A stretch of DNA of 64,000 nt from Bacteroidota bacterium. Its GTDB lineage: Bacteria > Bacteroidota > Rhodothermia > Rhodothermales > Bin80. The position numbers and the translations under genes were made by a program. Under the pieces are notes generated by a model. It saw nothing but the letters and a program-made list of their open reading frames with translations, ran no database searches and was not told the origin of the DNA. Shown here in pieces: positions 42,342-61,371 of the stretch; position 1 is the stretch's first letter, and each line of letters opens with the position of its first letter. Location of the stretch: positions 1 through 64,000 of the forward strand of contig JAPPGC010000047.1 of NCBI GenBank assembly GCA_028875125.1. Reading direction: 5' to 3'.

Positions 42342-42720
42342 ACCACTTCTCAAAAAGCAGCGTCTCGTTGAAAAGTCTCCGGCGGTCATCTGTATCGCGT
42401 CCGGCGGAGATCCGACGAGGCACAGTTTTTCCAGTCGCTGGAGAGCGCAGACCATCGAACTGCCAAAAAAGTAAGGGCAGGGCGTCTGAATGTGGATGGT
42501 AATGACATCTACTAAACCTGAGGTGATCGGACTTGTCGTTTCATCACAAAAAGGTCAGAAAATCTCAAAAACTGTTAACAAATTCTGTGTTATACTGAAG
42601 ACGGCTGCATCGGCAGTCGGCCAGTTTGCAAGAAGGAGGACTTGGTGACGGAGCATGCATCTGGTGCGAAGCCGTACATGCTGCCCTACGGATGATCCTG
42701 CCACCACAACAAGGTGAATC

Positions 42721-45700
42721 ATGCTTACTCGACTGCCTACTCTCCCCCTTGCACCGCTACTGGCCTTCCTGGGCGTAGCGCTGGCCCAGTCCCAGATAGC
42801 CCCCAATGCGGGAGCATATCACGGTTCGTGGGACTCGTTTGGCTTGCAACAAGATGTGACCATCACGGGCACTGTAACCGATGTCGAAGGAGACCCCCTG
42901 GGCGGCGCGACGGTGCGCGTCCCAGAGACCTTCATCGGAACGGCTACTGATGTAGATGGCAACTATGAGCTTACCGTCCCCGACGACGCAACGATTCTCG
43001 TGTTCTCGTTCGTGGGCTTCGTTACGCAGGAAGTGGCTATCGAAGGACGGACGGTCATTGATGTGATGATGGAGGAGGACATGGCGGGGCTTGAGGAAAT
43101 TATCGTTACGGGTTACGGTACCCAATTGCGCAAGGATGTCACCGGATCTATTGCCTCAGTTTCGGCTGCGGACCTGGCTTCGCGACCGGTTGCTTCCGTA
43201 GAAAAAACCTTGCAGGGTCTGATTCCGGGCATCAATGTAGCTGATCGCAGTGCCAACCCAGGGGATCTTGCTCAGATCTCAATCCGCGCCATCGGTTCCC
43301 TGTCTGCCGGCTACGAGCCTCTCTGGGTAATCGATGGATTTCCGACCGACCAGCGGAATGCCCAAATGCTTAACCCCGCGGATATTGAATCGATTGATGT
43401 GCTCAAGGACGCCTCCGCAACGGCCATTTATGGGTCTCGGGGAGCCAACGGCGTGATTATCGTCACCACAAAGTCTGGACTTATCGGGACCGCTCAGATC
43501 AATTTAGCCATGAACGCTGGGGTATCAAACATCACGCAGGCCTCACGCTTCAAGATGCTGAATGCTCAGGAATACGTTCAATTTCATACTGAGCAGAATG
43601 GCGGTACAACGCCCGAGTGGATTTCTAGCGTTTGGGATGGGTCCACGGATACGGACTGGCAGGATGAGCTTTATGAGACCGCTCCTTTCCACAGCTGGTC
43701 CCTGTCCGCACACGGGGGAACCGAAAAAGTCTCCTATCTGCTTTCAAGCAGCTATACGCAGGAATCTGGAGTCATACCCGGCGAAGGATTCAACAAGATC
43801 GGAGCCCGTGTCAAACTGGATTATCGCCCCAACAACAGAGTCACATTCGGGCTGAATGTGGCTCCGAGTGTGTCCAAGATCACGAAGTCCAGTCGGCCCA
43901 GCGAAGATGGCAGTGACTGGAGATCTGCTTGGGCGCAGGCCATTCTGTTGCCGCCCATTATTCCGATCTTTGATTCCGATGGCGAATATGCCATCGGTAG
44001 TTATGTCCCAGGCAATTTTCCAATTGGGAACCCCCTGCAGACCGTCAACCATTTCAAGCGCACGCATGATCTGTTTAGGATGCTGGGAGGAGTCAGTTTG
44101 GAGGTGGAGGCGTTTCCGGGTATTACGTTCAAGTCGATTCTGTCCACCAATATCGGATCAAATAAGAATGAATCGCTCTACGACGCTCCTCCCGGTCCGC
44201 CTCGATTTTCCTATTCGTCAGTCAGCACCCTGAATGTAGGGCAGGTGTGGCAGCGGGGATGGCTGAACGAAAATACGGTCAACTTCCGCAGGCAATTCAG
44301 ACAGGATCACTTCTTTGATGTCCTGGCCGGCTTTACCCTGCAGCGGGACAGAGTCGAATTCGTTTCCTCAAACGTAGCGGGGCTGCAGATTCCGGGGGCG
44401 CGGATACTGTCTATTGGTGACTCGGAGACGCTCACCTCCAACAACGGATTCGGCGAAAACGCACTCGCCTCTGTTCTAGGACGGCTCAACTATTCCTTTA
44501 TGGACCGATACTTGCTGACAGCCACTGTACGGCGGGACGGTAGTTCGAGGTTCGGGGCCAATAATCGCTATCAAACGTTCGGCTCATTCGCTCTCGGCTG
44601 GCGCCTCTCGGAAGAGGACTTCGTTAAGGAACTGGGTTTTGTCAACGACGCGAAGCTTCGGGTGTCTTACGGCTCCACAGGCAGCAATGCAATTCCCGAC
44701 TTCATTGCACGTCCGAGCTTGAGACCCGTCAATCATTCGCTCGGAGCCGTACAATTGACTGGCGTAGCCATTGGTGATCCGGGTAACCCTGGTCTGACCT
44801 GGGAGACATCTGAGCAACTTGATATTGGACTCGATCTGATTCTCTTTGATGGCCGCTACAGCGTGGTGCTGGATTACTACAATAATGTCACCACCAGCCT
44901 GCTCTTATCGCGGAATATCGTGGCGTCGTCTGGCTACGGGGGCTTCCTCACCAATATCGGCAGCATGCGCAACGATGGCATTGAGTTGTCGGCGAGTGTT
45001 GCCGTGATGGAAACAAATGATTTCGAGTTGGTTGTGGGCGGCAATGTGACGAACAACAATCAGGAGATTCTGGATTTGGGCGGCGATGAAGAGATCAGAA
45101 ATTTCTTCGGTGCACTACGCCGCACGGTGGGTGGAGAACTGCAGAACATTCATGTTGTAGAGCACATAGGCATTGTAAGGGAAGGGGAGACGCATCCGGC
45201 GCAGCCGGGGGCGCAACCGGGTACGATGCTGTACAGAGATGCCGATGGCGATGGATCGATCAGTAATTTCCTGGGACCTGACGGCGTTAATCTGGAAGGA
45301 ACGAATCTGGACTACATTTATGGATTCCACACCGATGTTCGCTACAAGGACTTTGAGCTTAGTGTCCGGTTCAACGGACAGGCCGGTGCCTCCGTTCTGG
45401 ATCTATACATCATTCAGATCGGCGCACCGTTCCGCCGGGTAAATCTGTCTAGGGAATTCTGGTACGATGGACGGTACATTTCGGAAAGTGAGCCTGGCAA
45501 TGGCAAGACCCCGAGCGCCTCAGGATTTGATACCGGGATCGGGGTTGTTTCCAGCCTTGGGATTCAGGATACCGATTTTCTCAGACTCCGCAACATAACG
45601 CTGACCTATAACCTGCCCCAGAGGCTGCTTCAGGGAATCGGTGTCCGGGGTGCGCGCGGGAGAATCTACACGTCTATGGAGAACGTCCACATGTGGACCG

Positions 45701-45870
45701 ACTTCATTGGCGGCAACCCCGCAGGGCGCCGGAATTCGGCCGGCGGTCCGTCGTTGTTCGGCGGATCCAGGATTCCCGGCGTAGCCGATGGCAGGGAAAT
45801 TGGACTGACGAGTCCACCGCACCTACCCCTGCCGCGCATATGGACCTTCGGCATCCACCTAACCTATTGA
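42721..45870 (+). CDS. susC: SusC/RagA family TonB-linked outer membrane receptor
   Basis: CarboxypepD-like domain ITGTVTDVEGDPLGGATV, LEEIIVTGYGTQLRKDVTGSIASV plug, 1049 aa. Confidence 0.95.
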   Translation: MLTRLPTLPLAPLLAFLGVALAQSQIAPNAGAYHGSWDSFGLQQDVTITGTVTDVEGDPLGGATVRVPETFIGTATDVDGNYELTVPDDATILVFSFVGFVTQEVAIEGRTVIDVMMEEDMAGLEEIIVTGYGTQLRKDVTGSIASVSAADLASRPVASVEKTLQGLIPGINVADRSANPGDLAQISIRAIGSLSAGYEPLWVIDGFPTDQRNAQMLNPADIESIDVLKDASATAIYGSRGANGVIIVTTKSGLIGTAQINLAMNAGVSNITQASRFKMLNAQEYVQFHTEQNGGTTPEWISSVWDGSTDTDWQDELYETAPFHSWSLSAHGGTEKVSYLLSSSYTQESGVIPGEGFNKIGARVKLDYRPNNRVTFGLNVAPSVSKITKSSRPSEDGSDWRSAWAQAILLPPIIPIFDSDGEYAIGSYVPGNFPIGNPLQTVNHFKRTHDLFRMLGGVSLEVEAFPGITFKSILSTNIGSNKNESLYDAPPGPPRFSYSSVSTLNVGQVWQRGWLNENTVNFRRQFRQDHFFDVLAGFTLQRDRVEFVSSNVAGLQIPGARILSIGDSETLTSNNGFGENALASVLGRLNYSFMDRYLLTATVRRDGSSRFGANNRYQTFGSFALGWRLSEEDFVKELGFVNDAKLRVSYGSTGSNAIPDFIARPSLRPVNHSLGAVQLTGVAIGDPGNPGLTWETSEQLDIGLDLILFDGRYSVVLDYYNNVTTSLLLSRNIVASSGYGGFLTNIGSMRNDGIELSASVAVMETNDFELVVGGNVTNNNQEILDLGGDEEIRNFFGALRRTVGGELQNIHVVEHIGIVREGETHPAQPGAQPGTMLYRDADGDGSISNFLGPDGVNLEGTNLDYIYGFHTDVRYKDFELSVRFNGQAGASVLDLYIIQIGAPFRRVNLSREFWYDGRYISESEPGNGKTPSASGFDTGIGVVSSLGIQDTDFLRLRNITLTYNLPQRLLQGIGVRGARGRIYTSMENVHMWTDFIGGNPAGRRNSAGGPSLFGGSRIPGVADGREIGLTSPPHLPLPRIWTFGIHLTY

Positions 45871-45881
45871 TCCCTAGAACC

Positions 45882-47432
45882 ATGAAATCGTCAAACAACG
45901 AAAAATTGCTATCAGGGCCCGCGGATAGAGGTGCTCCCTTACGGAATAACTGCAGGCAATGCTTCACGGCAAGAGGGCTGAGGGTTGTGATGTTTGTGCT
46001 ACTGTCTTCGCTAGTTGGGCTATCGTGTGACAGTTTCCTGGATGTGGAACCCGTTGACCGGATTGATGCTCCGTCATTTTTCTCGACGGATCAGGAGCTC
46101 CTGATCGGGATGAACGGTGTGTACGCCGCCCAAAGATCCATTTACGGGAGCGGGACTATCTACAACATTATTGAGGGAAGATCAGATAATACCGGCTTGG
46201 ATCATACGGACCAAGCCGAGCGTGTAGAGATAGACATATTTGCAGAGGTGCCGGGTAATCTGCTGCTGGATATCACGTGGGCCGCGATGTACAACTGCAT
46301 CAATCTCGCCAACACGGTCATTGTCCGAGGTCCCGATGCTGAGGGAGATGCAGCACTGATTGCGCGCATTGTGGGAGAAGCCAAATTCGTGCGCGCGTTC
46401 ACTTACTACCATATGGTCAATCTCTGGGGAGGCACACCGCTGAGAATCACGCCTACGGACGATTTTGAGGAAACTGCCGTGGCGCGGTCTTCGGAGGCTG
46501 AGGTCTACGATCAGATTGTGCGAGATCTGACGGAGGCTGCCACCGTGCTTCCCGAAACCTACGATGGCAGTTCCGGCCATGAAGTCGGCAGGGCTACCAA
46601 CTCAGCCGCTCTGACGTTGCTGGGAAAAGTAGAATTGCAACGGGGAAATGCGGGGGCTGCGACAGCCGCTCTACGTCAGGTAGTCAGCAGGCATTCGCTC
46701 CTTAGCGACTACGGGATGATCCATAGCCCCGGCAATGACAATTCGGCTGAGTCCATTTTTGAAGTCAGTTTTAACCCAGCGAATCAGACGGGGTTGTTCC
46801 GCCAGCACTTTATTCCTCAGAGCGTTGCCGTCGAACTGGGCATTGTTGCTGGAGGCTCGACACGTGAGATTCTCTTCCCGTTTGTCACTCAGGATTTGAT
46901 TGATGCCTTTGATGATCCGAATGATCTGCGGATTCCGTACACGTTTGGCACTGTCGAGGGCCGTGAGCCCGGGGGATATATTACCAAGTTCATAGATACA
47001 AGCGCGGAATCGGACGGAGCTGACGTAAACCTTGTTCTGTTGCGCCATGCCGATGTGCTGTTGTCACTTGCAGAGTCGCTGGGAGAAGGTGGCGAGGCCT
47101 ATGCCCTTATTAACGAGGTACGAAGCCGTGCGGGTCTTGCGGATATTGGACCCGACACGCCCGGCAGCTTCATGGAAAAGCTGATGAAGGAGCGTAGGCT
47201 GGAGTTTGCCTTTGAAATGCACCGTTGGTTTGATCTGGTCAGACTCCCGGAGGCTCAGACTATCGCAATAATGAACGCGCAGTTGGGGGCCCAGCAGACC
47301 ACGTTCCAGAGGATCACCAATTACAATGGGCCGACAAGCTTCAGCTTAGCGCCGGAACGCCTTGTATATCCGATTCCGCAATTGGAAATTGATATTTCCG
47401 GTGGCGTGGTAACGCAGAACCCCGGACACTAG
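45882..47432 (+). CDS. susD: SusD/RagB family outer membrane lipoprotein
   Basis: LVGLSCDSFLDVEPVDRID lipobox; AKFVRAFTYYHMVNLWGGTPL; ERRLEFAFEMHRWFDLVR; start at MKSSNNEK. Confidence 0.95.
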   Translation: MKSSNNEKLLSGPADRGAPLRNNCRQCFTARGLRVVMFVLLSSLVGLSCDSFLDVEPVDRIDAPSFFSTDQELLIGMNGVYAAQRSIYGSGTIYNIIEGRSDNTGLDHTDQAERVEIDIFAEVPGNLLLDITWAAMYNCINLANTVIVRGPDAEGDAALIARIVGEAKFVRAFTYYHMVNLWGGTPLRITPTDDFEETAVARSSEAEVYDQIVRDLTEAATVLPETYDGSSGHEVGRATNSAALTLLGKVELQRGNAGAATAALRQVVSRHSLLSDYGMIHSPGNDNSAESIFEVSFNPANQTGLFRQHFIPQSVAVELGIVAGGSTREILFPFVTQDLIDAFDDPNDLRIPYTFGTVEGREPGGYITKFIDTSAESDGADVNLVLLRHADVLLSLAESLGEGGEAYALINEVRSRAGLADIGPDTPGSFMEKLMKERRLEFAFEMHRWFDLVRLPEAQTIAIMNAQLGAQQTTFQRITNYNGPTSFSLAPERLVYPIPQLEIDISGGVVTQNPGH

Positions 47433-48377: not shown

Positions 48378-48406
48378 TTGACAATTGTTAAGTAGTTGTT
48401 TATTAT
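48378..48406 (+). promoter_or_regulatory. Sigma70-like promoter upstream of second TonB receptor
   Basis: TTGACA, 17 nt spacer, TATTAT; aligns with the region before susC (TATACT at 42591-42596). Confidence 0.55.
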
Positions 48407-48541
48407 AGAACAGGCGGCTTGGGTAGTCCGGTGGTGGCAGGTAGTAGTAGGACTTAGTGAGAAGTTGGTATCTGCTGCGCAGACTCTCATGGCGCCTCGT
48501 GCTCCCATTGGGATAATCCTGTCAGCAGAACAAGGTGAATC

Positions 48542-51500
48542 ATGCCTACTCGACTATCTACCCTCCTTTTCGCCCTGCTTATGGCCTCTCAGGGTGTGGC
48601 ACTGGCCCAGTCCCAGACGGGCAAAATTCAAGGAACAGTTACCGATGCCAGCACTGGCGAGCCCTTGCCGGGGGTCAATGTCGTTGTTGTCGGGACGGGC
48701 CTGGGGACAGCCACCGATGTGGATGGCAACTACTTCATACTGCGGGTGCCACCCGGCCTAAATAGCGTTCAGGCGTCTTTCGTCGGATTTGTGACTGTCA
48801 CGAAGACGGACGCCCGGGTATTCATAGATCAGACAACGCCGGTGGACTTCGAACTGACCGAGGCGGTTCTCGAGACCGACGAACTCGTGGTAACTGCCGA
48901 GCGTCCGCCCGTGGAGGTCGACCTGACCGGCAGCAAGGAGCGGATGAGTGGCGAAGAAATAGCCAACAGCTGGGCCAACACAGTCCTGGAGGCTATCGAA
49001 ACCCAGGCAGCTACCAACATTAATGGAGGCATTCGCGGCGGCTTCGGTCTGGAGGACAATTACTACATAGATGGGCTCAGCCTGCGGGATAATGTTTCTG
49101 GCGGCAATCTGACAAGTGTCAACACCACGGCCATTTCTGAGCTTGAAGTGCTCACTGGGGGATGGAATGCGGAATACGGCCGTGCAATGGGGGCCATCAT
49201 CAACATCGTTACCAAGTCGGCGATGGATCGCATTCAGGGAACGGTTCGCGCGCGTCTGCGGCCCGCTGGCAAGTACCACTGGGGCCGAAATATCTACAGT
49301 CAGGAGAATTACGAATGGGCAACCATGGCGACCCTGGATTACTGGACGGAGAATACCGGAGGAGGCGAGTGGGTCAACAGAACACCCCAAGAACGACTGG
49401 ATGCTTGGAGGAACTTTATTTCCGGAGATCTTTTCGGAGAACCGTCCAGGCGAATGCAGCAATACGCCGAGCGCGCGATCTGGGAAACCGAAGCAACCAT
49501 CTACGGACCGATCACCGACAAACTCGGCTTCTTGCTGTCCGGAAAGTATCTCAAGGATGCCCCGGAATTTCCGGCCTATCTAACCTATTCTAGAGATTGG
49601 AATTATCAGGGAAAGTTTGACTATCAGCTATCCCGCAGCAACCGACTGGAATTGTCGGGGATGGTTCAGGGGTTCAACAATACCGAGGGTCCCCGGCTGA
49701 GCTATTGGTCCAGTGAAGATTCGTTTATTGCCGGCCTCTGGGGACCGGCGCCGTTCTACTATTCGGGCTACTCCACCTTCAAGTATTGGCCGTACGGTAC
49801 TTCGCACATTTTTCAGTTGCCTTCGCCCCCGGAATACATGCGACTCAAGAGCGGGCAGTTGAAATGGACGCACGTATTCAATCCTGCTTCCTTCCTGGAT
49901 GTCCAGGCGAGCTACACATCAATGGATCTGGACCGCAACAACTTCAGGCAGCTGGAAGCCAGCGACACGTACGATCCAAACTCCGAGGAATTCGGAACGC
50001 AATGGGACGAGACCATGATTCCCGGCAATCCGCTATTTCTGCTGCCGCCGATTTTTCACCGGGGACACCCCGGCGTTTTTCAGCTCACCGCGGAGGCAGA
50101 TGCCTGGTTGTTCAAGGCCGCTTACACCAATCAGATCAACCGTTTTTTCCAGGTTAAGACTGGGGCGATGTATTCGCCGCAGTACGTCTCCAAGCGGTTC
50201 AAGGCAGGCGCCATGCCCGGTGCCATTTACTCCAACCATGCGACCCGCCCCGACTTCAATCCTTGGGACGCCGCCGCGTACGCGCAAGGAAAAATTGAGG
50301 TCAATGATATGGTGATCAACGCTGGACTGCGCCTTGATGCGTTCAATGCCAACACGAAAGTGGCTCCGTCTATATTCGATCCTGCATTGATCACCAACAT
50401 GGTCGGCGTACCGCCCGACGAAATAGTCACGTATTCTGATGAAGAACACGGCGTGGATACTGAAACCAAGGCCGTCCTCTCACCGCGTTTCGGTATTTCT
50501 CACCCAGTCACCGAAAATACGGTGCTCCATTTTTCCTACGGGCACTTCAACCAGCGTCCAGCCTGGCAGCTTATTGGTGGCGGACCCACCATTTTTCACG
50601 TCTTTGGCTCGTCCGCCGGTGCTCCGCATGCCTCGCCGGACACGACGAGTTACGTGTTTGTGTTCTATCACCCGAACACTAGCACGGGCAATCCAGACCT
50701 CAGTTTTGAAAAGATTATCCAGTACGAGCTCGGATTTGACCAACATATTCCGGGCATTGCAAATCTGGATGTCACGGTTTATTACCGGGATGGAAAGAGC
50801 CTGACCTCGCTGGGAGTACGGCAGTCGCCCAACAATATCGGCGATAACCTCTTCGGTGTTGGTGGGGCGGTAACCACGGAAGTGCATTTTGATGCGGCGA
50901 ACCCACTCGGATTTGCGCCGGGCGGCGGCCGTAGCCGCGTCACTTCCAACGGGGGGTATGTGGACGTACGCGGCCTGGAGCTGTCCCTGCACTCCCTGTT
51001 CCTGGAGCATGCTCGTGCACGAATCATTTTCAACAGGTCGTTCGTCCGCTCCGGGCAGTACGGCTTCCGGCAGGTCTTCATCACGGATGAGGAGGGCAAC
51101 CCGGTTCGACCCAATACGCTGCACGGCGTGAGCCTGGGCGATAAGGGGCTGTCGGGCACCAACAGCGACACCTGGAATCCAACCACCAGTGTGAAGCTGA
51201 TCTTGGACCTCTTTTCGCCACCGGAATTTGGGCCTGCACTTGGCTTCTTTCATCCTTTGGGCGACTGGCGCCTCAATGCATACTACGTATACGCAAGTGG
51301 GCACCGCTATACTTATCACTCGCCAGGAGATTTCTCCACCGAACCCAACAACCGGCGCTGGAAGCCCCACCGCAATACAAATCTGCGCCTTTCCAAAGGG
51401 ATTAATATGCCTGGTGTTGCAGAAATGGAATTCAGCATTGACGTCCACAATGTGTTCAACTCCAAGCGGCTCAACTTCCTGACCGGCAATGCTTTGGAGA

Positions 51501-51622
51501 CCTATCACGAAGAAGGAACATTGCCGGTCAATCCTACCACGGGGGAGGAGAGTGAATGGGACTGGTACAACCAAGGTCTCCTGCCAAGGCAGGTTTATTT
51601 CGGACTCCAGGTGACCTTCTAG
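48542..51622 (+). CDS. TonB-dependent receptor with carboxypeptidase-like regulatory domain (not SusD-paired)
   Basis: IQGTVTDASTGEPLPGVNVVVVGTGLGTATDVDGNYFI; plug domain; ends QVYFGLQVTF (beta-barrel terminal Phe). Confidence 0.92.
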   Translation: MPTRLSTLLFALLMASQGVALAQSQTGKIQGTVTDASTGEPLPGVNVVVVGTGLGTATDVDGNYFILRVPPGLNSVQASFVGFVTVTKTDARVFIDQTTPVDFELTEAVLETDELVVTAERPPVEVDLTGSKERMSGEEIANSWANTVLEAIETQAATNINGGIRGGFGLEDNYYIDGLSLRDNVSGGNLTSVNTTAISELEVLTGGWNAEYGRAMGAIINIVTKSAMDRIQGTVRARLRPAGKYHWGRNIYSQENYEWATMATLDYWTENTGGGEWVNRTPQERLDAWRNFISGDLFGEPSRRMQQYAERAIWETEATIYGPITDKLGFLLSGKYLKDAPEFPAYLTYSRDWNYQGKFDYQLSRSNRLELSGMVQGFNNTEGPRLSYWSSEDSFIAGLWGPAPFYYSGYSTFKYWPYGTSHIFQLPSPPEYMRLKSGQLKWTHVFNPASFLDVQASYTSMDLDRNNFRQLEASDTYDPNSEEFGTQWDETMIPGNPLFLLPPIFHRGHPGVFQLTAEADAWLFKAAYTNQINRFFQVKTGAMYSPQYVSKRFKAGAMPGAIYSNHATRPDFNPWDAAAYAQGKIEVNDMVINAGLRLDAFNANTKVAPSIFDPALITNMVGVPPDEIVTYSDEEHGVDTETKAVLSPRFGISHPVTENTVLHFSYGHFNQRPAWQLIGGGPTIFHVFGSSAGAPHASPDTTSYVFVFYHPNTSTGNPDLSFEKIIQYELGFDQHIPGIANLDVTVYYRDGKSLTSLGVRQSPNNIGDNLFGVGGAVTTEVHFDAANPLGFAPGGGRSRVTSNGGYVDVRGLELSLHSLFLEHARARIIFNRSFVRSGQYGFRQVFITDEEGNPVRPNTLHGVSLGDKGLSGTNSDTWNPTTSVKLILDLFSPPEFGPALGFFHPLGDWRLNAYYVYASGHRYTYHSPGDFSTEPNNRRWKPHRNTNLRLSKGINMPGVAEMEFSIDVHNVFNSKRLNFLTGNALETYHEEGTLPVNPTTGEESEWDWYNQGLLPRQVYFGLQVTF

Positions 51623-51672
51623 GGGCGCCCGGAATCATTTAGTCAACCAATAAACTGGAGGAGTCTGAACAG

Positions 51673-53649
51673 ATGAAATCTCATACAATTCACAGCACCC
51701 TAATCGCGGTCCTGATGGTGGTTCTGCCCTGCACGGCGGTCAACGGCCAAAGCAGCACGAATCACACCTTTACGCGGGGCAAATTCTGGACGGTCATTAG
51801 TGAATCGGTGCCTCATCCGCCGATCTGGCTGGCCTCGTATCCCGGCTATTTTGAAGCGCCATCCAACTGGTTCAATACCTTAAGCTACTGGGCGGGCGAT
51901 GTGGATGGCACGCAGCAGGTTACCGCTGGCTTTCCCGGCTTCAACATCGTCAATCACACGCAGGTAAAGAACTACAATTTCACAGAAAGCCTGACTGAGG
52001 CAGAAGAATACTCGTTCGAGACCGTTACCTCTGTGGACCCATCCGGGTCTTCAGTCCCGGTCATTCCGCTGACAGTTTCGCGCAAGCGCATGGTATGGAG
52101 CCTGCCGAAATATGACGACTTTATTATTCAGCGGGAAGTGATAACCAACGAGAGCAGTGTCCAGGTCACCAACTGGTACTACAGCGTGGCCTACGGCATC
52201 AATATCAGCCTGGGCATTCCGTACGGCGTGACCTTTGACGACGAGTACCTGTGGGATCCGGGGTTCGGCAATTTTCGTATGGAGCAGGGCAATTTCGTGT
52301 TCTACGACGACACCTCAATGCCGCCCAACCAGGCGCCGGTGGCCTATGATATTTCCCCAGGCGATCAGACCGGTGACCGCGGCGATCCCGGCAATATCAC
52401 AATTCAGAATTCGATTGACCGGCGCCTGTACTCTCCGCAGCTCTTTACGGACAACATTGTCTATGTCACGCCCAACAAGCATGGTGAGACGACGGTCTAC
52501 CAAGGCATTTTTCACCGCATCCTGAATGAGAATCCCGGCGCACCTGATGAAGAATTCTGGCAGCCGACCAACATGGATCCGACGTACGTCTTTACCCGCA
52601 TGACGGCGCAGCAGGCCCGCATGAGCTGGCGGGACGCCAATGCGGATGGCGGCACCTTAGATGGAAACCAGTATGAACGTAGACCGTCGTTCAACCTGGG
52701 GATCGGACCCTATGACATTGCGCCGGGGGAGTCAGTTGAACTCATTCGTGTCGTTGCGCTCGGCGAAATGGACCGCAATGTCAGTGAGTTGGGGGGACTC
52801 AATGCCACCCAAAACTATCTGTCGCAGGGGCTGGCCAATCTGAAGGCGAATTGGCAGGCTGCGCTAGATATTGTAGACGGATTCAGACGGACAGGAAACT
52901 GGAATGAGGGCATCTCAGCGTTTCCGCCTCCAACGGTCGGCGATGCTCCGTTTGCCAGCAATGACGACGAGTTGCAGGTTGATCTCTACGTTGACATAGA
53001 ACAGGGTACACAGGGATTTGAGCTTATGTGGACAGCGGTGCCTCCCAACTACCGTGATCCCATCACGGGCACCAATGACTTTGCCGGATACAAAGTATAC
53101 CGGTCTGAGTCAAGGATTGAAGGGCCATGGATCGAAGCCGCTGACCTGACACGCGCCGAAGCCGAGGGGCTTACTGCCGGGGGGAAGGTGACCTTCCGCC
53201 TTCCTGCCGAGCCAGGAATTCCGTACCGTCATTGGGTTACCTCTTACGATCTGGATGGCAATGAAAGCGGATTCACCGCCTATACGTTTCATGCTCTGGC
53301 GGCCAAGCCCGCGCCGAGCAACGATCTGTCCGAGGTGCTCGTGATCCCGAATCCGTTCCGTCAGGTTAGCGGGCTTGCTGATCCATCCGAGGAGAAGCGA
53401 ATCAGCTTTCTGAACATCCCTGGCCAATGCACCATCCGCATTTTCACGGTTGCCGGGGAGCTCGTGCGCACCATTGAGCACAACGATGGCTTCGGAGAAG
53501 AGGCCTGGGGCTCGGCGATGCACGGGGATTACCTGCTGACGCGCTTCTTCCAAAACGTCCAACCGGGTGTTTATATCTACCATATCGAATCGCATGTGCA
53601 AGGACATGAAGGAGAGTCAAGCATAGGCAAGTTCATGATCGTCAAATGA
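51673..53649 (+). CDS. Exported protein with Fn3-like region and C-terminal T9SS-like sorting domain
   Basis: Signal peptide; C-term VIPNPFRQ...CTIRIFTVAGELVRTIEHNDG...GVYIYHIESH...GKFMIVK. Confidence 0.75.
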   Translation: MKSHTIHSTLIAVLMVVLPCTAVNGQSSTNHTFTRGKFWTVISESVPHPPIWLASYPGYFEAPSNWFNTLSYWAGDVDGTQQVTAGFPGFNIVNHTQVKNYNFTESLTEAEEYSFETVTSVDPSGSSVPVIPLTVSRKRMVWSLPKYDDFIIQREVITNESSVQVTNWYYSVAYGINISLGIPYGVTFDDEYLWDPGFGNFRMEQGNFVFYDDTSMPPNQAPVAYDISPGDQTGDRGDPGNITIQNSIDRRLYSPQLFTDNIVYVTPNKHGETTVYQGIFHRILNENPGAPDEEFWQPTNMDPTYVFTRMTAQQARMSWRDANADGGTLDGNQYERRPSFNLGIGPYDIAPGESVELIRVVALGEMDRNVSELGGLNATQNYLSQGLANLKANWQAALDIVDGFRRTGNWNEGISAFPPPTVGDAPFASNDDELQVDLYVDIEQGTQGFELMWTAVPPNYRDPITGTNDFAGYKVYRSESRIEGPWIEAADLTRAEAEGLTAGGKVTFRLPAEPGIPYRHWVTSYDLDGNESGFTAYTFHALAAKPAPSNDLSEVLVIPNPFRQVSGLADPSEEKRISFLNIPGQCTIRIFTVAGELVRTIEHNDGFGEEAWGSAMHGDYLLTRFFQNVQPGVYIYHIESHVQGHEGESSIGKFMIVK

Positions 53650-53690
53650 TGGTATTTAATCCTGCCCGTACCCACTTACCGAGAATTCTC

Positions 53691-54737
53691 ATGAAGCGAC
53701 TGACTTTCCTATTGGCCAACTTGGCATTCCTGACCGCCAGTCTGGCCCCCGCGCATGCTCAATTCACCCCGGACCCTGGTGCCGGGCTTCCTCCCACAGA
53801 CTTCAACCGTGTAGGGCAGTCGGGATTTCAGTTCCTTAAACTGCCGACCAACGCACGCCAGGCTGCTATGGGCGGAGTCATCTCATCACTGGGGCGTGGC
53901 GATGCGGCATCGTCGCTCACTAATCCTGCCTCGCTGGTGGATGTGACCAATCTCAATGTCGGGCTCTCAAACGTGCGCTGGATCGCCGACATCAACTACT
54001 ACAGCGCGGCTGCCGCCCGCCACTTTGAGGGCATCGGCGTCATCGGTGTAAACCTGCTGTTTTTGGACTACGGCGACATGCCGCGTACTGAAAACAGACC
54101 GATCCTACTGGATGGCATTCCCACCGGACGCTCGGAGGTGCTTACGGATCTTGGGACCGTGACCGCTCGGGACCTTGCGGTGGGGGTCAGCTATGCCCGC
54201 AGGGTGACAGAGCAGCTGCACTTCGGCGTCAACATCAAATACATTTCGGAAACCCTTGACGACGCAACTGTGGGCGCCTGGGCGGTGGACATCGGCACGG
54301 TGTTCCATACGGGGATCCGCAGTCTGCGCGTCACCATGGTGGGTCGCAACATCGGCCCCGATACGCAGCTTGCTGCTTTTGACGAGCGCATCGGGTACGA
54401 ACCGGCGGATGTCCGTATGCCGGTCAATTTCAGCTTCGGTGCGGCCTATGACCTTATTGAAGGCGATGCCGGCGGTCTGCATCACTTGACAATAGCTGCG
54501 GAGTTTGTACACCCCAATGATGGCGCCGAGAAGGTGAACTTCGGCACCGAGTACACTTTTCGCAACCTGTTGTCGATCCGTGGCGGATATCGCTTCAATT
54601 ACGACGAGGAAGGATTTACTCTGGGCAGCGGTGTCAATGTAGGCCTCAGTGACTACACGCTCAATCTGGGGTACGCATTCTGGGAATTCGGCTTGCTTGG
54701 GTCGGTGCATGTCGTCTCCGTGGCATTCGGGCTGTAG
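53691..54737 (+). CDS. PorV/PorQ-family outer membrane beta-barrel protein
   Basis: GQSGFQFLKLPTNARQAAMGGVISSLGRGDAASSLTNPASL; FGVNIKYISETLDD; start at MKRLTFLL. Confidence 0.8.
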   Translation: MKRLTFLLANLAFLTASLAPAHAQFTPDPGAGLPPTDFNRVGQSGFQFLKLPTNARQAAMGGVISSLGRGDAASSLTNPASLVDVTNLNVGLSNVRWIADINYYSAAAARHFEGIGVIGVNLLFLDYGDMPRTENRPILLDGIPTGRSEVLTDLGTVTARDLAVGVSYARRVTEQLHFGVNIKYISETLDDATVGAWAVDIGTVFHTGIRSLRVTMVGRNIGPDTQLAAFDERIGYEPADVRMPVNFSFGAAYDLIEGDAGGLHHLTIAAEFVHPNDGAEKVNFGTEYTFRNLLSIRGGYRFNYDEEGFTLGSGVNVGLSDYTLNLGYAFWEFGLLGSVHVVSVAFGL

Positions 54738-54742
54738 GCTGT

Positions 54743-56437
54743 TTGGGCGTCGCAGACATTGGTGGTCTCATGCATTTTCCCTGCAGTTGTTGCGCCAAAC
54801 CGGGCCCAATAGGCAGGACTGATGCGTGGCGGCGGTGTGGATCCTGGCATCGACGACATTTCCTTCAGGTGGTGGGACAAGCAGCGGCGTTGTTCGGAAT
54901 GGCCGGTGGACTGCCCGCCTGCCGGACGGCGCATGGGAAGTTGCCGAATTTCGTGATCATCTTTACTGACGACCAGGGCTACAATGATCTGGGTATCTAT
55001 GGATCGCCTAATATTCAGACTCCACGCATTGATCGTATGGCAGCCGAAGGCATGCGTTTTACGGACTTTTATGTAAGTCCGATCTGTAGTCCCTCGCGTG
55101 CGGCGCTGCTGACCGGAAGCTATCCCGTACGGGCAGGCATGCCCGATGTGCATTTATACGATGCTCCCTTCGGACTCAGTCCCGATGAGATTACGATTGC
55201 GGATATGCTCAAGCCCTTAGGCTATACCACCGCCTGCATAGGCAAATGGCATTTGGGACAGGACGACATATTTGCTCCAAACCGCCAGGGTTTTGACTAT
55301 TTCTATGGAATTCGCATCGTTAATGGCACGCAGCCATTCGAAAATTTTGCAGTGCCGCTTTATTACAATGATCGAAAGATCACTGAACGTCCCAACCATT
55401 TCCGGTTCACGCAGGATTTCACTCGTGAATCCATGCAGTTTATTGAGCGCAGTCAGCATCAGCCGTTTCTGTTGTATCTGGCCCATCCGATGCCGCATAT
55501 TCCCATATATCCCGGCAAGGAGTTCCAAGGCGTTTCCGATGCCGGGCTATACGGAGATGCAGTGGAGGAGATTGACTGGTGCACGGGGCTGATTCTGGAT
55601 CAATTGCTGTCGCTAGGCCTGGACGAAAACACCCTGGTCATTTACACCTCGGACAACGGGCCATGGCTGGGCTTCGAAGACCAGTCCGGTTCGGCGGAAC
55701 CACTCCGAGGCGGAAAACTGACCACATGGGAAGGGGGTGTGCGCGTGCCCTGCATCATGCGATGGCCCAACCAAATCCCAGCCGGCGCAATCTGTAGCGA
55801 GTTGGCCACGATAATGGATATCATGCCGACAATCGCAGACCTTTCAGGCGCTTCCCTACCACACGACCGCGCCATAGATGGCAAAAGCCTGTGGCCTCTT
55901 ATGCAGGCACCTGAGGAGGCAAAGAGTCCGCACGAAGTGTACTACTACTACGCCGGGACTTGGCTGCAGGCCCTACGGGCCGGGCCATGGAAGCTGCATC
56001 TTGCGCGCCCAGAGTCGCGCGACGGCATCTACGGTGAATGTGCACCGTGGCTTGCGGTCAATACGACCATTATGGATCAGCCGGAACTCTACAATCTGCA
56101 GGAGGATCCAGGTGAGACTACGGATGTGGCCGCCCAGCACCCCGACATTGTGGCCCGCCTGTCAGAACTGGCGGAAGAAGCACGTTCTGAACTTGGTGAC
56201 TACGGCCAGCCCGGCCGAGGCGTCCGCCCCACTGGATCAGCCGATCCTAGCTACCCAGTTCCCCACGAATGGCTCGGCAGTCCGCACTGGGAGGCGACGA
56301 CTAGCGCCATGCAGGAGGATATGCGCGCTTTTCGAAAGTACCGCTTCCAGTTGCTGAGTCGCGAAGACACACTTGACGCGCGCGAAAGGCTTGAATGGCA
56401 ATGGTATATGGATCACCCTGACCAGATATTTGAATAG
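54743..56437 (+). CDS. Type I sulfatase, Tat-like leader
   Basis: RRHFLQVVGQAAALFGMAGGLPAC; FVIIFTDDQGYNDLGIYGS; ICSPSRAALLTG active site; exact start uncertain. Confidence 0.93.
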   Translation: MGVADIGGLMHFPCSCCAKPGPIGRTDAWRRCGSWHRRHFLQVVGQAAALFGMAGGLPACRTAHGKLPNFVIIFTDDQGYNDLGIYGSPNIQTPRIDRMAAEGMRFTDFYVSPICSPSRAALLTGSYPVRAGMPDVHLYDAPFGLSPDEITIADMLKPLGYTTACIGKWHLGQDDIFAPNRQGFDYFYGIRIVNGTQPFENFAVPLYYNDRKITERPNHFRFTQDFTRESMQFIERSQHQPFLLYLAHPMPHIPIYPGKEFQGVSDAGLYGDAVEEIDWCTGLILDQLLSLGLDENTLVIYTSDNGPWLGFEDQSGSAEPLRGGKLTTWEGGVRVPCIMRWPNQIPAGAICSELATIMDIMPTIADLSGASLPHDRAIDGKSLWPLMQAPEEAKSPHEVYYYYAGTWLQALRAGPWKLHLARPESRDGIYGECAPWLAVNTTIMDQPELYNLQEDPGETTDVAAQHPDIVARLSELAEEARSELGDYGQPGRGVRPTGSADPSYPVPHEWLGSPHWEATTSAMQEDMRAFRKYRFQLLSREDTLDARERLEWQWYMDHPDQIFE

Positions 56438-56440
56438 TCA

Positions 56441-57046
56441 ATGAACAGGACCATACAGCAGTCTACCGGTGATTTGCACCGCGCCATTGAGGCAGGAGAC
56501 CTGACGGCCGTTCAGGCGGCCCTGACTGCAGGAGCCGACGTAAATGGTATACTCGGCGATTGGGCGCCGTTGCACCGTGCCGCAGCAACAGGTGACAGCA
56601 CCATGGTACGGACGCTTTTGGAGGCTGGAGCGGAGATAGAACAAATCGGGGCAGGCAACTGGACCCCGCTGCACCGCGCCGCTAAACTTGGCCACGAGGC
56701 GATTACAACACTGCTCCTTGAGTGGGGTGCCAATGTAGAGGCGGTAGGCATTGACGGGTGGACACCGCTTATGCGGGCCGCCATGAAAGGCCAGGAAGGC
56801 ACGGGCCGACTACTGATTACTGCAGGTGCAGATCTCACCACGGCCAATGGTGCTCAGAAATGGACCCCCTTGCATTGGGCCGCATTCAGCGGCAGCCACG
56901 CGCTCGCTGAGGCCCTTCTTCTGGCCGGGGCGGATGCAGAGGCTAATCCGGGAGGTGGATTGGACCCGAAGGGTTTGGCAATGCATTACGGTCACGACCA
57001 CATCGTGGAGTTGTTGGATGCACATTTGGAAAAATCTGGCGAATGA
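56441..57046 (+). CDS. Ankyrin-repeat protein (no signal peptide)
   Basis: About five ankyrin repeats (e.g. DWAPLHRAAATGDSTMVRTLLEAGAEIE, NWTPLHRAAKLGHEAITTLLLEWGANVE, KWTPLHWAAFSGSHALAEALLLAGADAE). Confidence 0.93.
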   Translation: MNRTIQQSTGDLHRAIEAGDLTAVQAALTAGADVNGILGDWAPLHRAAATGDSTMVRTLLEAGAEIEQIGAGNWTPLHRAAKLGHEAITTLLLEWGANVEAVGIDGWTPLMRAAMKGQEGTGRLLITAGADLTTANGAQKWTPLHWAAFSGSHALAEALLLAGADAEANPGGGLDPKGLAMHYGHDHIVELLDAHLEKSGE

Positions 57047-58536
57047 TGCAGTCCTCTCATGACAATGTTGCTTTGACAAGGCGGGAATTCATCCTGCTGA
57101 CCACCTTTGCTGCCGCCGTCCATGGAGCCGGCTGTCGGAATACGAATGCTATGGGTCCCAACATAGTCCTCATCTTTGCCGATGATCTGGGCTACGGTGA
57201 CCTTGGCTGCTACGGATCCGAAACGATCAGAACGCCTTATCTGGATCGCCTCGCCGCAGAAGGCATTCGATTCACCGATTTCCGTTCCCTTTGTTCGGTT
57301 TGCAGCCCTTCACGTGCTGCATTGCTGACAGGGCGGTATCCCTCGCGATGCGGGGTACCGTTCGCGTTGGGTGGGGTCTACAGTGATCTGGGGCTTCAGG
57401 AAAGTGAAGTGACCGTGGCCGAATTGGTCAGGGCTCAAGGCTACAGGACGGCCTGCGTAGGCAAATGGCACTTGGGCATTCCGAGCGACTTTGACTTTAA
57501 GACGCATGAAGGGTTCACGGCGCGATCGGAATTTCACCCCGCCCGCCAAGGGTTCGACCTGTTCTATGGAATGGTCGGCAATTCAAGCCCAGATGGCTCT
57601 ACGCCATTGCTGGAAAACGATGGAGTGGTGGATCCAGATGCCCATATAACCACGATCACGGAGCACTTTACGCAACGAGCGATTGAGTTTATGCTGGCGG
57701 ATCGTCGCCACCCGTTCCTGATATACCTGTCGCACACGCGTCCCCATGCACCCTGGATGCCCAATCCAAGATTCGCAGGACAGTCGCCTGCCGGCGTGTA
57801 TGGTGACATGGTTGAGGAGATCGACTGGAGTACCGGCCGGATCCTGGACGCGCTTGACGAATCCGGCCTGGCAGCCGATACACTGGTGATATTCACCTCA
57901 GACAACGGGCCTGGGCCCAACGGTTCCGCCGGGCCTTTCAGAGGCGGGAAAGGGAGCACATTCGAAGGGGGTATGCGGGTGCCCTGTATCATGCGCTGGC
58001 CTGTTCGTATTGAGGCGGGAACGGTAAGCGGCGCGATGGTCAATGCTATGGATATGCTTCCTACAATTTCCAGTCTTGCTGGGGCTGCTCTGCCTACCGA
58101 TCGCAAAGTGGATGGCAGAGATTTGTCCCCTCTTCTATTCGGAGAAGGGGTTCAAGGGTTAGACAATCGCGTATTCTACTACTACAACGGTGTGAACTTG
58201 CAGGCAGTCCGCGAGGGTCGCTGGAAGCTGCACCTTCCTCGCAGTCCAAAGATGCTAGTCTGGTGGGAGTCGGGGCTTCGCGAACCTGAACTACCGCTGC
58301 TGTATGACTTGCAGGCGGACCCCGGAGAAACACAGGATCTCGCTTCCGCCCATCCGGAAATAGTGGAACGATTGATGGAGGAGGCTGCGCGTGCACGGGC
58401 CGAGTTGGGCTCATGGGATAAGACCGGGACAGATCAACTCCCAATCACGCACTTGATGGACGATCGCCGAAGCCTACGGCATCTGCGTTCACAACAGGAT
58501 CACCAGGCAATGGGTCGTGATCTCCCAAAAGAATAG
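57043..58536 (+). CDS. Type I sulfatase, Tat-like lipoprotein leader
   Basis: TRREFILLTTFAAAVHGAGC; IVLIFADDLGYGDLGCYGS; VCSPSRAALLTGRYP active site; start overlaps ankyrin stop by 4 nt. Confidence 0.93.
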   Translation: MMQSSHDNVALTRREFILLTTFAAAVHGAGCRNTNAMGPNIVLIFADDLGYGDLGCYGSETIRTPYLDRLAAEGIRFTDFRSLCSVCSPSRAALLTGRYPSRCGVPFALGGVYSDLGLQESEVTVAELVRAQGYRTACVGKWHLGIPSDFDFKTHEGFTARSEFHPARQGFDLFYGMVGNSSPDGSTPLLENDGVVDPDAHITTITEHFTQRAIEFMLADRRHPFLIYLSHTRPHAPWMPNPRFAGQSPAGVYGDMVEEIDWSTGRILDALDESGLAADTLVIFTSDNGPGPNGSAGPFRGGKGSTFEGGMRVPCIMRWPVRIEAGTVSGAMVNAMDMLPTISSLAGAALPTDRKVDGRDLSPLLFGEGVQGLDNRVFYYYNGVNLQAVREGRWKLHLPRSPKMLVWWESGLREPELPLLYDLQADPGETQDLASAHPEIVERLMEEAARARAELGSWDKTGTDQLPITHLMDDRRSLRHLRSQQDHQAMGRDLPKE

Positions 58537-58554: not shown

Positions 58555-61371
58555 GTGCCAACGATCGGTCAGTTAAGACTTAAGAGAACAATGGGAACTA
58601 ACGCTACAATACTCCTGATCAGCCCGCTAGGCAGGCCTGCCGGGGCCGCCTACAGGCCTCAACTCTCCGCAATGGGTCGGGCGATGGCCGCCATCATTCG
58701 TGCCAAAACCGCTAGGATCTGTACCCCCGTGCGCTGCGCCATAGTCCTACTGTGGACAATCATCCTGGCTACAGGGTCATCGGCACAGGTCAGTGTACAT
58801 CACACCGAAAACGGTTTGGAATTCTCCAACCAGCAGGTAAGGGTTGTCATTGAGAAAGATGAGTTTGGAGTCAGTCAGCACTTTTTTGCCGCCAGGGGCG
58901 GGAATTGGGTGGAGGTGGCCGAGGCCTTCAGGCCGCCATCCCCGCGACCTGTGAACACGACTGAGCTGTATTTGGATCGGTCCAATGAGCACGGTCGGGC
59001 GCTCGAAGTGGCGGATGACTACCGTATCATCGTCCCGGAGGTGCTTAATACGTTTGAAATTGCGGGACAGGACGATGATCAGGTGACTGTGACACTGTCG
59101 GGAAGTACACCGATCGCTGACATAGAGCAGTCGTTGACACTGCGCAGCGGTGCGGCTTCGGTGCACATCAATGTGCGGGCCGAGCTCAAGGGTGACCCGC
59201 CACAATTAGAATACCTGCTTTCCCCCATCGCATTTGCAGAAGGAGGTACTCCGGAATTCAGTCATGCGCCCGCATATAAGCGTTCTCCTGGTGATGTCAT
59301 TGCGGACCGTGTCTTTTTTGCGCCGACGGTAATGGTGCAGACCGGCGGGCAAGTCGCCGCCATTGTACCAGACCTGAATCTGATTAATGAGCACAGGGTT
59401 TATGCGGAACGGGCACGCCCACAGTGGCATCGTTGGATTTTTGGAGTGCCAATTGATTCGTCCAGAATAACATTGCCAGCCGTGTTGGACCTGGAACTTG
59501 TCTCCGGGATGACTAGTCAACCCCTGTTGGCTTACGGCCTAATGGACGTAATAGCAGAACAGCACGTGTTCTGGCGACATGTTAACGCCGGAGGCACATT
59601 TGTACGCACCCTTTCCGGCCATGAGTTGCAGTACGGTATGGATCTCCTTCTCGCTTCCGATGCACCGGCCCACCGCGGCTACCAGCGCGTTTCCCAATTC
59701 CTGTGGGAGCAGTATGGTCAGCACTATTTTCGGAAGCCACGACCACAGGCACTTCCATTTGCCGAATATGCCAGAGCCCTCTATCCGGCGAGCTTCGACT
59801 ACAAGGGATACACAGTGGAATTCGAGAACAATCAGCCGGTAATGGTCCAAAGATCCCAGGACGGGCCACAGGCTTGGACGTCCTGGCAGGAGTGGGAAAA
59901 GGACGGGCAGGAAATGGGCATGTTGCGGCTGACAGCGCCCCAATGGTTTCATCTGACCTACATCACAGCCTGGTGGAACAATGTCGCCGATGCGCTGGGG
60001 TTATCCTACTGGGGGGAGACATTGTCTGATGCATCATTCGAGGCTAAGGTCGATCGGATTATCAACTCGGTACTGGATGCCCCGCAGCAACAGGGGATGT
60101 TTCCGTCCCTGTATGACCTGGACAAGAAGTCCTGGCAGCGCAGCCTCTGGCGGTTTCCCGGGGAGGATTACGATCCAAATGTGACGCGCAACTACTGGGA
60201 CTGGCAGACATCGGATTATCACACGGCCGCGGCCGCTGTTACGGTCGGCTACCTGATGGAATTCTATCGTCTCGGACGGGAAGATCCGCACATTCTGGCA
60301 TTTGCGCAGCGATTTGGGGATTTTTTGATTGAGCGCATGGCCCCCGACGGCACCGTGCCCGCCTGGTTTGATGCCAATCTAGAGCCACGGTTGTCCATGC
60401 GGTGGAATGCGGAAGGAGGGGCGAATGTATGGGTACTCAGTGAGCTTTTTCGCGCAACGGGTAATCCCCTTTATCTGGATGCGGCCAGGCGAGCGGCGGA
60501 GTTTCTCTTGAGGGAAGTGCTTCCCACGCAACGCTGGGTTGACTTTGAGGCGCTTTACTCGTGCGCGGTGAAGGCCGAAACCTTCCATGATGAACGGACC
60601 GGGCAGCCGCCACGCAATGCAATGGCCATGTCATGGGCGCTGCAGGGCTTCGTTTCAATGTATGAAACAACCGGAGATCCCCAATACCTGGATGCTGCGG
60701 AGGCGGTTGCGGACTACGCAGTGCTGCTCCAAACGGTTTGGGCGCCACATTATATCATCACGGCCTATCCTTTTGGCGGTTTCACGTCGCAGATTGGGGA
60801 TGCCGAATGGCTTGACCAGCGGGATCACCGATTCGCAGGCATTCTGGTACGTCTGGGACTGCTGACCGGTCGCCAGGATTTCATTGAACGCGGCGTCGCG
60901 GCGGCGCGCTCATCCCTGACGCTGGTTACGCACCCCCGCCATACCACTAACGGAATCTACAATGCACCTACGTTTCCCTTCGGATTGGGGCCGGAGAATA
61001 TTGATCATGAAGGCTTTCCTCAGACCCCGCTACGTTCAGGGCCAAGTTGGGCGGAGGTGGGCGGTCTCATGGCAGCAGCAGATGTGCTTAAACAGTTGGG
61101 GAGCGTCTACATTGACGTAGCTCGTGATATCGCCGTGGGCGTGGACGGACTCGCCGTTGACGGCTATCACTTGGAAGGTCACTCTCTCACTATAGATATC
61201 ACAAAGTTGATGTCCGAACTGCCCTCGCCGTATGAGGAGCCCTATCCGGCGGTGATACGGATCGAGGGGCTGCCCGATGCGGGGCCCTATGACCTGACGA
61301 TTGATGGTCAGACCTACCCGGGACTACACGCCGAGGATTTGATCAGCTATTCAATTACTATAATGCCTTGA
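58555..61371 (+). CDS. Large exported protein with probable (alpha/alpha)6-barrel glycan-active domain
   Basis: 938 aa ORF (GTG start; N-terminus uncertain); NAEGGANVWVLSELFRATGNPLYLDAARRAAEFLL, NAMAMSWALQGFVSMYETTGDPQYLDAAEAVADYA. Confidence 0.7.
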   Translation: MPTIGQLRLKRTMGTNATILLISPLGRPAGAAYRPQLSAMGRAMAAIIRAKTARICTPVRCAIVLLWTIILATGSSAQVSVHHTENGLEFSNQQVRVVIEKDEFGVSQHFFAARGGNWVEVAEAFRPPSPRPVNTTELYLDRSNEHGRALEVADDYRIIVPEVLNTFEIAGQDDDQVTVTLSGSTPIADIEQSLTLRSGAASVHINVRAELKGDPPQLEYLLSPIAFAEGGTPEFSHAPAYKRSPGDVIADRVFFAPTVMVQTGGQVAAIVPDLNLINEHRVYAERARPQWHRWIFGVPIDSSRITLPAVLDLELVSGMTSQPLLAYGLMDVIAEQHVFWRHVNAGGTFVRTLSGHELQYGMDLLLASDAPAHRGYQRVSQFLWEQYGQHYFRKPRPQALPFAEYARALYPASFDYKGYTVEFENNQPVMVQRSQDGPQAWTSWQEWEKDGQEMGMLRLTAPQWFHLTYITAWWNNVADALGLSYWGETLSDASFEAKVDRIINSVLDAPQQQGMFPSLYDLDKKSWQRSLWRFPGEDYDPNVTRNYWDWQTSDYHTAAAAVTVGYLMEFYRLGREDPHILAFAQRFGDFLIERMAPDGTVPAWFDANLEPRLSMRWNAEGGANVWVLSELFRATGNPLYLDAARRAAEFLLREVLPTQRWVDFEALYSCAVKAETFHDERTGQPPRNAMAMSWALQGFVSMYETTGDPQYLDAAEAVADYAVLLQTVWAPHYIITAYPFGGFTSQIGDAEWLDQRDHRFAGILVRLGLLTGRQDFIERGVAAARSSLTLVTHPRHTTNGIYNAPTFPFGLGPENIDHEGFPQTPLRSGPSWAEVGGLMAAADVLKQLGSVYIDVARDIAVGVDGLAVDGYHLEGHSLTIDITKLMSELPSPYEEPYPAVIRIEGLPDAGPYDLTIDGQTYPGLHAEDLISYSITIMP

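Follow-up and report, generated by a model that had tools for sequence, protein, structure and literature searches.

A conserved trio of genes for a TonB-dependent receptor, an exported protein with a T9SS-type tail and a PorV-family barrel

The SusCD system, a receptor closed by a lipoprotein lid, is the textbook design for outer-membrane uptake in Bacteroidota. PorU and PorZ are surface components of a second assembly, the attachment complex of the type IX secretion system (T9SS), which they form together with PorV and PorQ. Here we consider three adjacent genes with features of both, in a 64,000-nucleotide stretch from a Bacteroidota bacterium of the order Rhodothermales (the window: positions 1 to 64,000 of contig JAPPGC010000047.1, assembly GCA_028875125.1). 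They encode a TonB-dependent receptor, an exported protein that we call MID (for the middle protein of the trio), and an outer-membrane barrel of the PorV/PorQ family. All three open reading frames lie on the plus strand:

48542..51622, + strand: non-SusC TonB-dependent receptor, 1026 residues, with signal peptide, CarboxypepD_reg-like domain, plug and barrel (Pfam, NCBIfam)
51673..53649, + strand: MID, 658 residues, predicted to be Sec-exported and non-lipidated (no Pfam match; AlphaFold2 (AF2) model)
51745..52893, + strand: MID N-terminal beta-rich domain, about residues 25-407, ending in a 33-residue helix (AF2 model)
52975..53307, + strand: MID FnIII-like domain, about residues 435-545 (AF2 model, Foldseek)
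53320..53646, + strand: MID C-terminal T9SS-type domain, residues 550-658 (tail model; PorU and PorZ C-termini)
53646..54737, + strand: PorV/PorQ-family outer-membrane barrel (NF033709, 184.7 bits); the likelier start is ATG 53691, where the signal peptide begins

Two precedents concern how T9SS proteins meet barrels. Private barrels hold individual T9SS proteins: SprF holds SprB in Flavobacterium johnsoniae, and PorP holds PG1035 in Porphyromonas gingivalis (PMC9143113, PMC12618676). Substrate tails bound to PorV itself have been seen by cryo-EM (PMC10994853).

A conserved, co-inherited module

The three genes form a conserved, co-inherited module. This genome contains eight full receptor-MID-PorV trios, each in the same order and on one strand; with eight paralogous copies, the arrangement is not due to chance. 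The window MID was the only query used on relatives, its neighbours not serving as bait, and every open reading frame was rescored, since calling only the longest frames had masked trios behind antisense frames in high-GC genomes. In other families of the order, 40 loci were chosen by their MID alone and read, and each is a full trio. A motif scan for the MID family in named genomes yielded 80 loci, spread over Rhodothermales, Balneola, Ignavibacteria (including Stygiobacter electus and a metagenome-assembled genome (MAG) of Melioribacter roseus), Calditrichia, KSB1, and Neomarinimicrobiota. Of these, 70 are full trios, in another eight the receptor is missing only because the contig stops short, and two are orphan MIDs.

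Over all loci read, the receptor lies upstream of 129 of 131 assessable MIDs and the barrel downstream of 153 of 155. The trio lineages number about six at the phylum level: Rhodothermota, Balneolota, Ignavibacteriota, Calditrichota, KSB1, and Neomarinimicrobiota. Within trios the median intergenic gaps, after removal of duplicates, are 22 and 15 nt. Six relatives keep the trio orthologous to the window copy together with its downstream genes, as judged by gene order and lengths (L082-L087).

Co-divergence was examined in 45 trios from ten genomes, with partners shuffled only inside each genome and species relationships thereby kept. Distances correlate strongly for each pair: receptor and barrel, 0.93; receptor and MID tail, 0.86; MID tail and barrel, 0.85. 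The shuffled sets have means of 0.02-0.06 and a maximum of 0.32. Restricted to the eight trios of the present genome, the correlations are 0.70-0.79 (p 0.003-0.007). At the level of sequence, these comparisons show that the trio genes do not swap partners within genomes and are inherited as a unit.

The trio also travels with type IX secretion. SprA, the translocon, scores 1688 bits in this genome and is above cut-off in all 56 relatives (including those from KSB1, Neomarinimicrobiota, and Calditrichia) versus none of 14 control genomes. SprA also occurs in two genomes without MIDs (G028 and G038); the trio may therefore require T9SS, but a T9SS does not entail a trio. A sequence-only reading of this DNA had proposed that a non-SusC receptor, a T9SS-type protein, and a barrel are dedicated partners, and had named conserved synteny and a genomic T9SS as the points to check. 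Both checks were run and both bear the proposal out: synteny is nearly all-or-none, SprA is present throughout, and the three genes diverge jointly.

MID matches (these, not trios, were counted) occur in 142 of 297 genomes spread over the phylum. In Ignavibacteria, the class of Stygiobacter, strong MID matches occur in 77 of 100 genomes, and a number of these have ten or more; no match occurs in the genomes sampled from g19, a genus of the present order. Trios are also present (L238, L239) in a genome, G031, taken as that of Rhodothermus marinus DSM 4252, which offers a culturable species in which to test the idea. The trio was not found described in the open-access papers searched, all bioRxiv preprints and most subscription papers lying outside that search. 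A three-gene design present in about six phylum-level lineages appears to be unnamed; its middle gene has no Pfam family.

Three further observations concern distribution and make-up. A close trio relative, its MID 49-53% identical, occurs at L132 in a MAG (OTbin.62) labelled Actinomycetota; the label or the binning is probably wrong. One trio subclass carries a fourth gene behind the PorV gene, of about 500 residues, that matches Toluene_X/FadL (L073:8224-9624, L147:7692-9230, and many others). Finally, the R. marinus xylan locus Rmar_1067-1081 has a TonB receptor beside hypothetical proteins with Por tails (PMC6987092). It was considered as a trio and rejected: within G031:C1:1219000-1238500 the receptor is distant (122 bits), the tail protein scores 21 bits, and there is no PorV.

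Receptor, MID and barrel compared with known families

Like SusC/SusD (RagA/RagB), the trio joins a CarboxypepD_reg TonB receptor to a co-encoded surface partner, occurs as many paralogs, and has glycan-enzyme neighbours. Unlike SusC, its receptor falls below the SusC cut-off and lacks the signature. The window receptor matches CarbopepD_reg_2 (E 2.5e-18) and Plug (E 3e-4 in the protein scan; 27.4 bits, above cut-off, in the genome scan), with OMP_b-brl_3 slightly under its cut-off at 26.6 bits; a plug domain in an outer-membrane barrel identifies it as a TonB-dependent receptor. It reaches 80.2 bits on the SusC model TIGR04056 (cut-off 368), and the NCBIfam scan did not find the SusC signature TIGR04057. 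The carboxypeptidase-domain, non-SusC receptor first read from the sequence is therefore upheld. Its sole solved relative is RagA, covering residues 28-157. Against its eight trios, the genome as a whole has only three SusC receptors above cut-off, and 38 plug-domain matches; three plug-domain TonB receptors of 942-959 residues lie within about 6.5 kb at G000:C124:850-7269.

The trio partner is unrelated to SusD: the Pfam scan found neither a Pfam domain nor a SusD match in MID. SusD is lipidated, whereas MIDs are essentially without a lipobox. A hydrophobic N-terminus is present in 116 of 127 MIDs, and none of 135 has a convincing lipobox (two candidates, neither convincing); lipoprotein anchoring was rejected on this ground.

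Likeness to a T9SS C-terminal domain is limited to the last 110 or so residues of the window MID, which match the PorU C-terminus (E 0.0017). The earlier claim of an exported protein with a T9SS-like C-terminal domain thus stands, for a divergent tail. Among 37 MIDs, curated models of PorZ fit 21 (best 4.8e-9), PorU 15 (best 2e-7), and type A cargo 21 at E 0.01 (best 1.9e-6), in each case at the C-terminus wherever coordinates are given. Two MID paralogs of this genome score 21-26 bits on the type A model, around its 23-bit cut-off. On a MID-tail model, built from the same MIDs that were scored with it, these reach at least 102 bits (median 137), and 20 ordinary cargo tails of this genome at most 25.7. 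As judged by these models, MID tails are a class of their own, distinct from ordinary type A cargo and partly like PorU and PorZ.

An AF2 model of MID built from 37 sequences (pLDDT 69.2, pTM 0.71; residues 22-90 of low confidence) replaced a poor one built from 19 (pLDDT 47.6). It predicts three parts: a beta-rich N-terminal domain with a 33-residue helix; an FnIII-like domain; and a tail sandwich. Foldseek returned FnIII tandems for the model, and when PDB sequences were searched with the MID profile, only weak FnIII-type matches resulted. The N-terminal domain weakly matches the folds of laminaribiose and cellodextrin phosphorylases (TM-score 0.19-0.22 on the query). In glycoside phosphorylases, linker helices come after an N-terminal beta-sandwich; such a fold would suit a carbohydrate-facing domain. 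The match is a lead only.

Two observations on MIDs stand apart. Long MIDs (about 1050-1350 residues) contain a stretch that matches SprA model positions of about 601-658 (E 1e-4 to 1e-9), for example G000:C13:10015-10194 in this genome; such stretches were seen in nearly every genome searched. The ninth MID of this genome, of 1160 residues (L240:294-3776, on C37), stands alone close to the end of its contig, with no barrel behind it.

The barrel belongs to the PorV/PorQ subfamily NF033709, whose cut-off is 90 bits and which all 23 trio barrels scanned match. It misses the canonical PorV and PorQ equivalog cut-offs (60 and 133 bits versus 250 and 220), and shows no match to the PorV2 model, NF052325. 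The PorV/PorQ-like barrel of the sequence-only reading accordingly holds at the level of the subfamily, not of any of these three members. Nor is it of the PorP/SprF family: it matches PorV_fam and has no TIGR03519 match, and the weak TIGR03519 matches in four of the 23 trio barrels are each bettered by PorV_fam. A PDB search with the single window sequence found nothing; the profile of the trio-barrel family was needed to reach PorV (6h3i, E 6.1e-29), with TodX at 3e-4.

This genome has 13 PorV/PorQ-family members above cut-off and two weaker matches. Those outside trios include a canonical PorV beside PorU, a PorQ-like gene (216.6 bits, cut-off 220), and one PorV2-like gene, on C50. One branch, with support of 77/91, separates the trio barrels from the other PorV-family genes of the genome; subgroups of trio barrels mix phyla, so these paralog classes are old or move between phyla. 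Because a canonical PorV accompanies PorU, the trio barrels are extra and apparently partner-specific, not a general shuttle.

Three described systems come close to this barrel and tail. Type B C-terminal-domain cargo with its PorP/SprF shuttle likewise pairs a T9SS-type protein with a FadL-family barrel of its own, encoded by the adjacent gene (PMC9143113, PMC12618676); unlike it, the trio has a barrel of the PorV/PorQ family, a tail nearer to the PorU, PorZ, and type A models, and always a TonB receptor. The PorU-PorV-PorQ-PorZ attachment complex shares with the trio a tail resembling PorU and PorZ and a barrel of the PorV/PorQ family. MID differs in lacking a sortase domain, in having many copies per genome, and in its linkage to a TonB receptor, and PorU and PorV are separate genes here. 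PorV2, a putative type IX sorting protein, is also a PorV/PorQ-family paralog, but the PorV2-like gene of this genome is in no trio and the window barrel fails the PorV2 model. The tests run set the trio apart from SusCD, from type B/SprF pairs, and from canonical PorV and PorQ. The most fitting description is a variant of the design that couples a receptor to a surface partner, here with what appear to be T9SS-type delivery and barrel anchoring.

A candidate uptake complex and its alternatives

These features suggest how the trio might work. MID would be made with a Sec signal peptide and would then cross the outer membrane via the SprA translocon, using its C-terminal domain. It would not be passed to the general PorV/PorU attachment machinery; instead, its tail would stay bound to the PorV-family barrel of the neighbouring gene, as type B cargo does to a private PorP/SprF barrel. 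The beta-rich and FnIII head would sit over or beside the co-encoded receptor and capture or present substrate, which the receptor would import with TonB energy. The job of SusD would thus fall to a T9SS-delivered, barrel-anchored protein in place of a lipoprotein. Taken whole, this account of MID as a T9SS-exported, SusD-like partner of the receptor, anchored by its own barrel, seems to us fairly probable. Among its parts, retention of MID by the trio barrel may be presumed, and a single surface complex of the three proteins for capture and uptake is plausible.

Several observations weigh against this account. The window MID tail matches neither type A model (TIGR04183, PF18962) at E 0.01, and so falls outside type A cargo; only 21 of 37 MIDs match TIGR04183. 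Export of MID by T9SS is suggested by a weak tail similarity together with the co-occurrence of SprA. Co-divergence speaks for co-inheritance, not contact, and physical contact is something we infer. Orphan MIDs exist (L153, L188, and this genome's own on C37), the likeness of the MID fold to carbohydrate enzymes is weak, and some trios do not stand beside glycan enzymes (one adjoins an Amidase_2 protein, another a peptidyl-prolyl isomerase).

A simpler explanation, which we consider unlikely, makes MID ordinary T9SS cargo, which the general machinery releases or attaches to lipopolysaccharide (LPS); the extra PorV would be a redundant shuttle, the receptor would act alone, and the genes would only be co-regulated. 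The type A tail model does fit 21 of 37 MIDs at E 0.01, and canonical PorU and PorV are present. Yet the roughly 52 matches to ordinary type A cargo in this genome, compared by coordinates, never have a PorV gene behind them; MID tails form a separate class; and linkage this near to absolute, with no swapping of partners, exceeds what co-regulation needs.

Since PorV is itself a FadL-like barrel, and some trios carry the fourth, Toluene_X/FadL gene, the barrel could instead be a FadL-type channel and MID a binding protein unrelated to T9SS, the trio then handling hydrophobic or small molecules. The barrel profile favours PorV (E 6e-29) over TodX (3e-4), MID ends in a T9SS-type domain and always occurs with SprA, and the window locus has sulfatases and no lipid genes, all of which make this alternative very improbable. 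Least credible of all is that the receptor serves export or surface assembly, its TonB energy helping to release or position MID and barrel: the receptor is almost never apart from its secreted partner and barrel, but it has an importer's architecture of plug and barrel, several copies adjoin degradative enzymes, and we know of no precedent for a TonB receptor in such a role.

Returning to the uptake complex, a broader proposal is possible, though we advance it only tentatively. The trio would be a further T9SS sorting route, with a distinct tail class whose members each go to, and stay with, a PorV-family barrel of their own, and with an import subunit that is secreted, not lipidated. It would be an old, broadly distributed equivalent of SusCD within the FCB group and, for Ignavibacteriota and Rhodothermota, a main machine of TonB uptake. 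Should the uptake reading hold, many PorV paralogs would acquire a role in uptake, type IX secretion would be tied directly to TonB import, and many genes annotated as 'hypothetical' or 'TonB receptor' in poorly studied phyla would gain a function.

The window locus and its neighbours

The surroundings of the window trio include the following features:

42721..47432, + strand: SusC/SusD pair, outside the trio (TIGR04056, 747 bits; SusD_RagB, E 1.4e-27)
48378..48406, + strand: promoter-like TTGACA-17-TATTAT (consensus scan, 11/12; the scan total is no higher than in shuffles, and the site is not functional evidence)
54743..58536, + strand: sulfatase, ankyrin-type protein, and sulfatase, downstream (Sulfatase, E 4.9e-62 and 5.8e-62)
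28084-29493, 39223-41823, 58555-61371: further glycan genes, for a third sulfatase, an enzyme of family GH116, and a protein with weak similarity to GH127

The sequence-only reading described a glycan locus. This suits the window copy and several of its paralogs, which have sulfatases, GH38, or heparinase II/III nearby; it does not suit every copy. Other trios adjoin GH38, heparinase II/III, CBM20, or LamG proteins; with neighbours so varied, substrates may vary too. At the window locus, the sulfatases and the nearby GH116 gene suggest a sulfated glycan, and the substrate is probably a fragment of one. The promoter-like site lies 136 nt 5' of the receptor start.

The trio had also been described as being without SusD. 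That holds for the trio but not for the locus, since the locus has a complete SusC/SusD pair about 1.1 kb upstream of the trio. The SusC gene of this pair and the trio receptor gene have a stretch of about 118 nt in common (42679-42796 and 48500-48617) at about 78% identity, spanning the ribosome-binding region and the signal peptide; the alignment scores 106, versus a best of 54 in 200 random pairs. The mature proteins are very different despite this alike leader DNA, which suggests that the leader was exchanged between the two genes.

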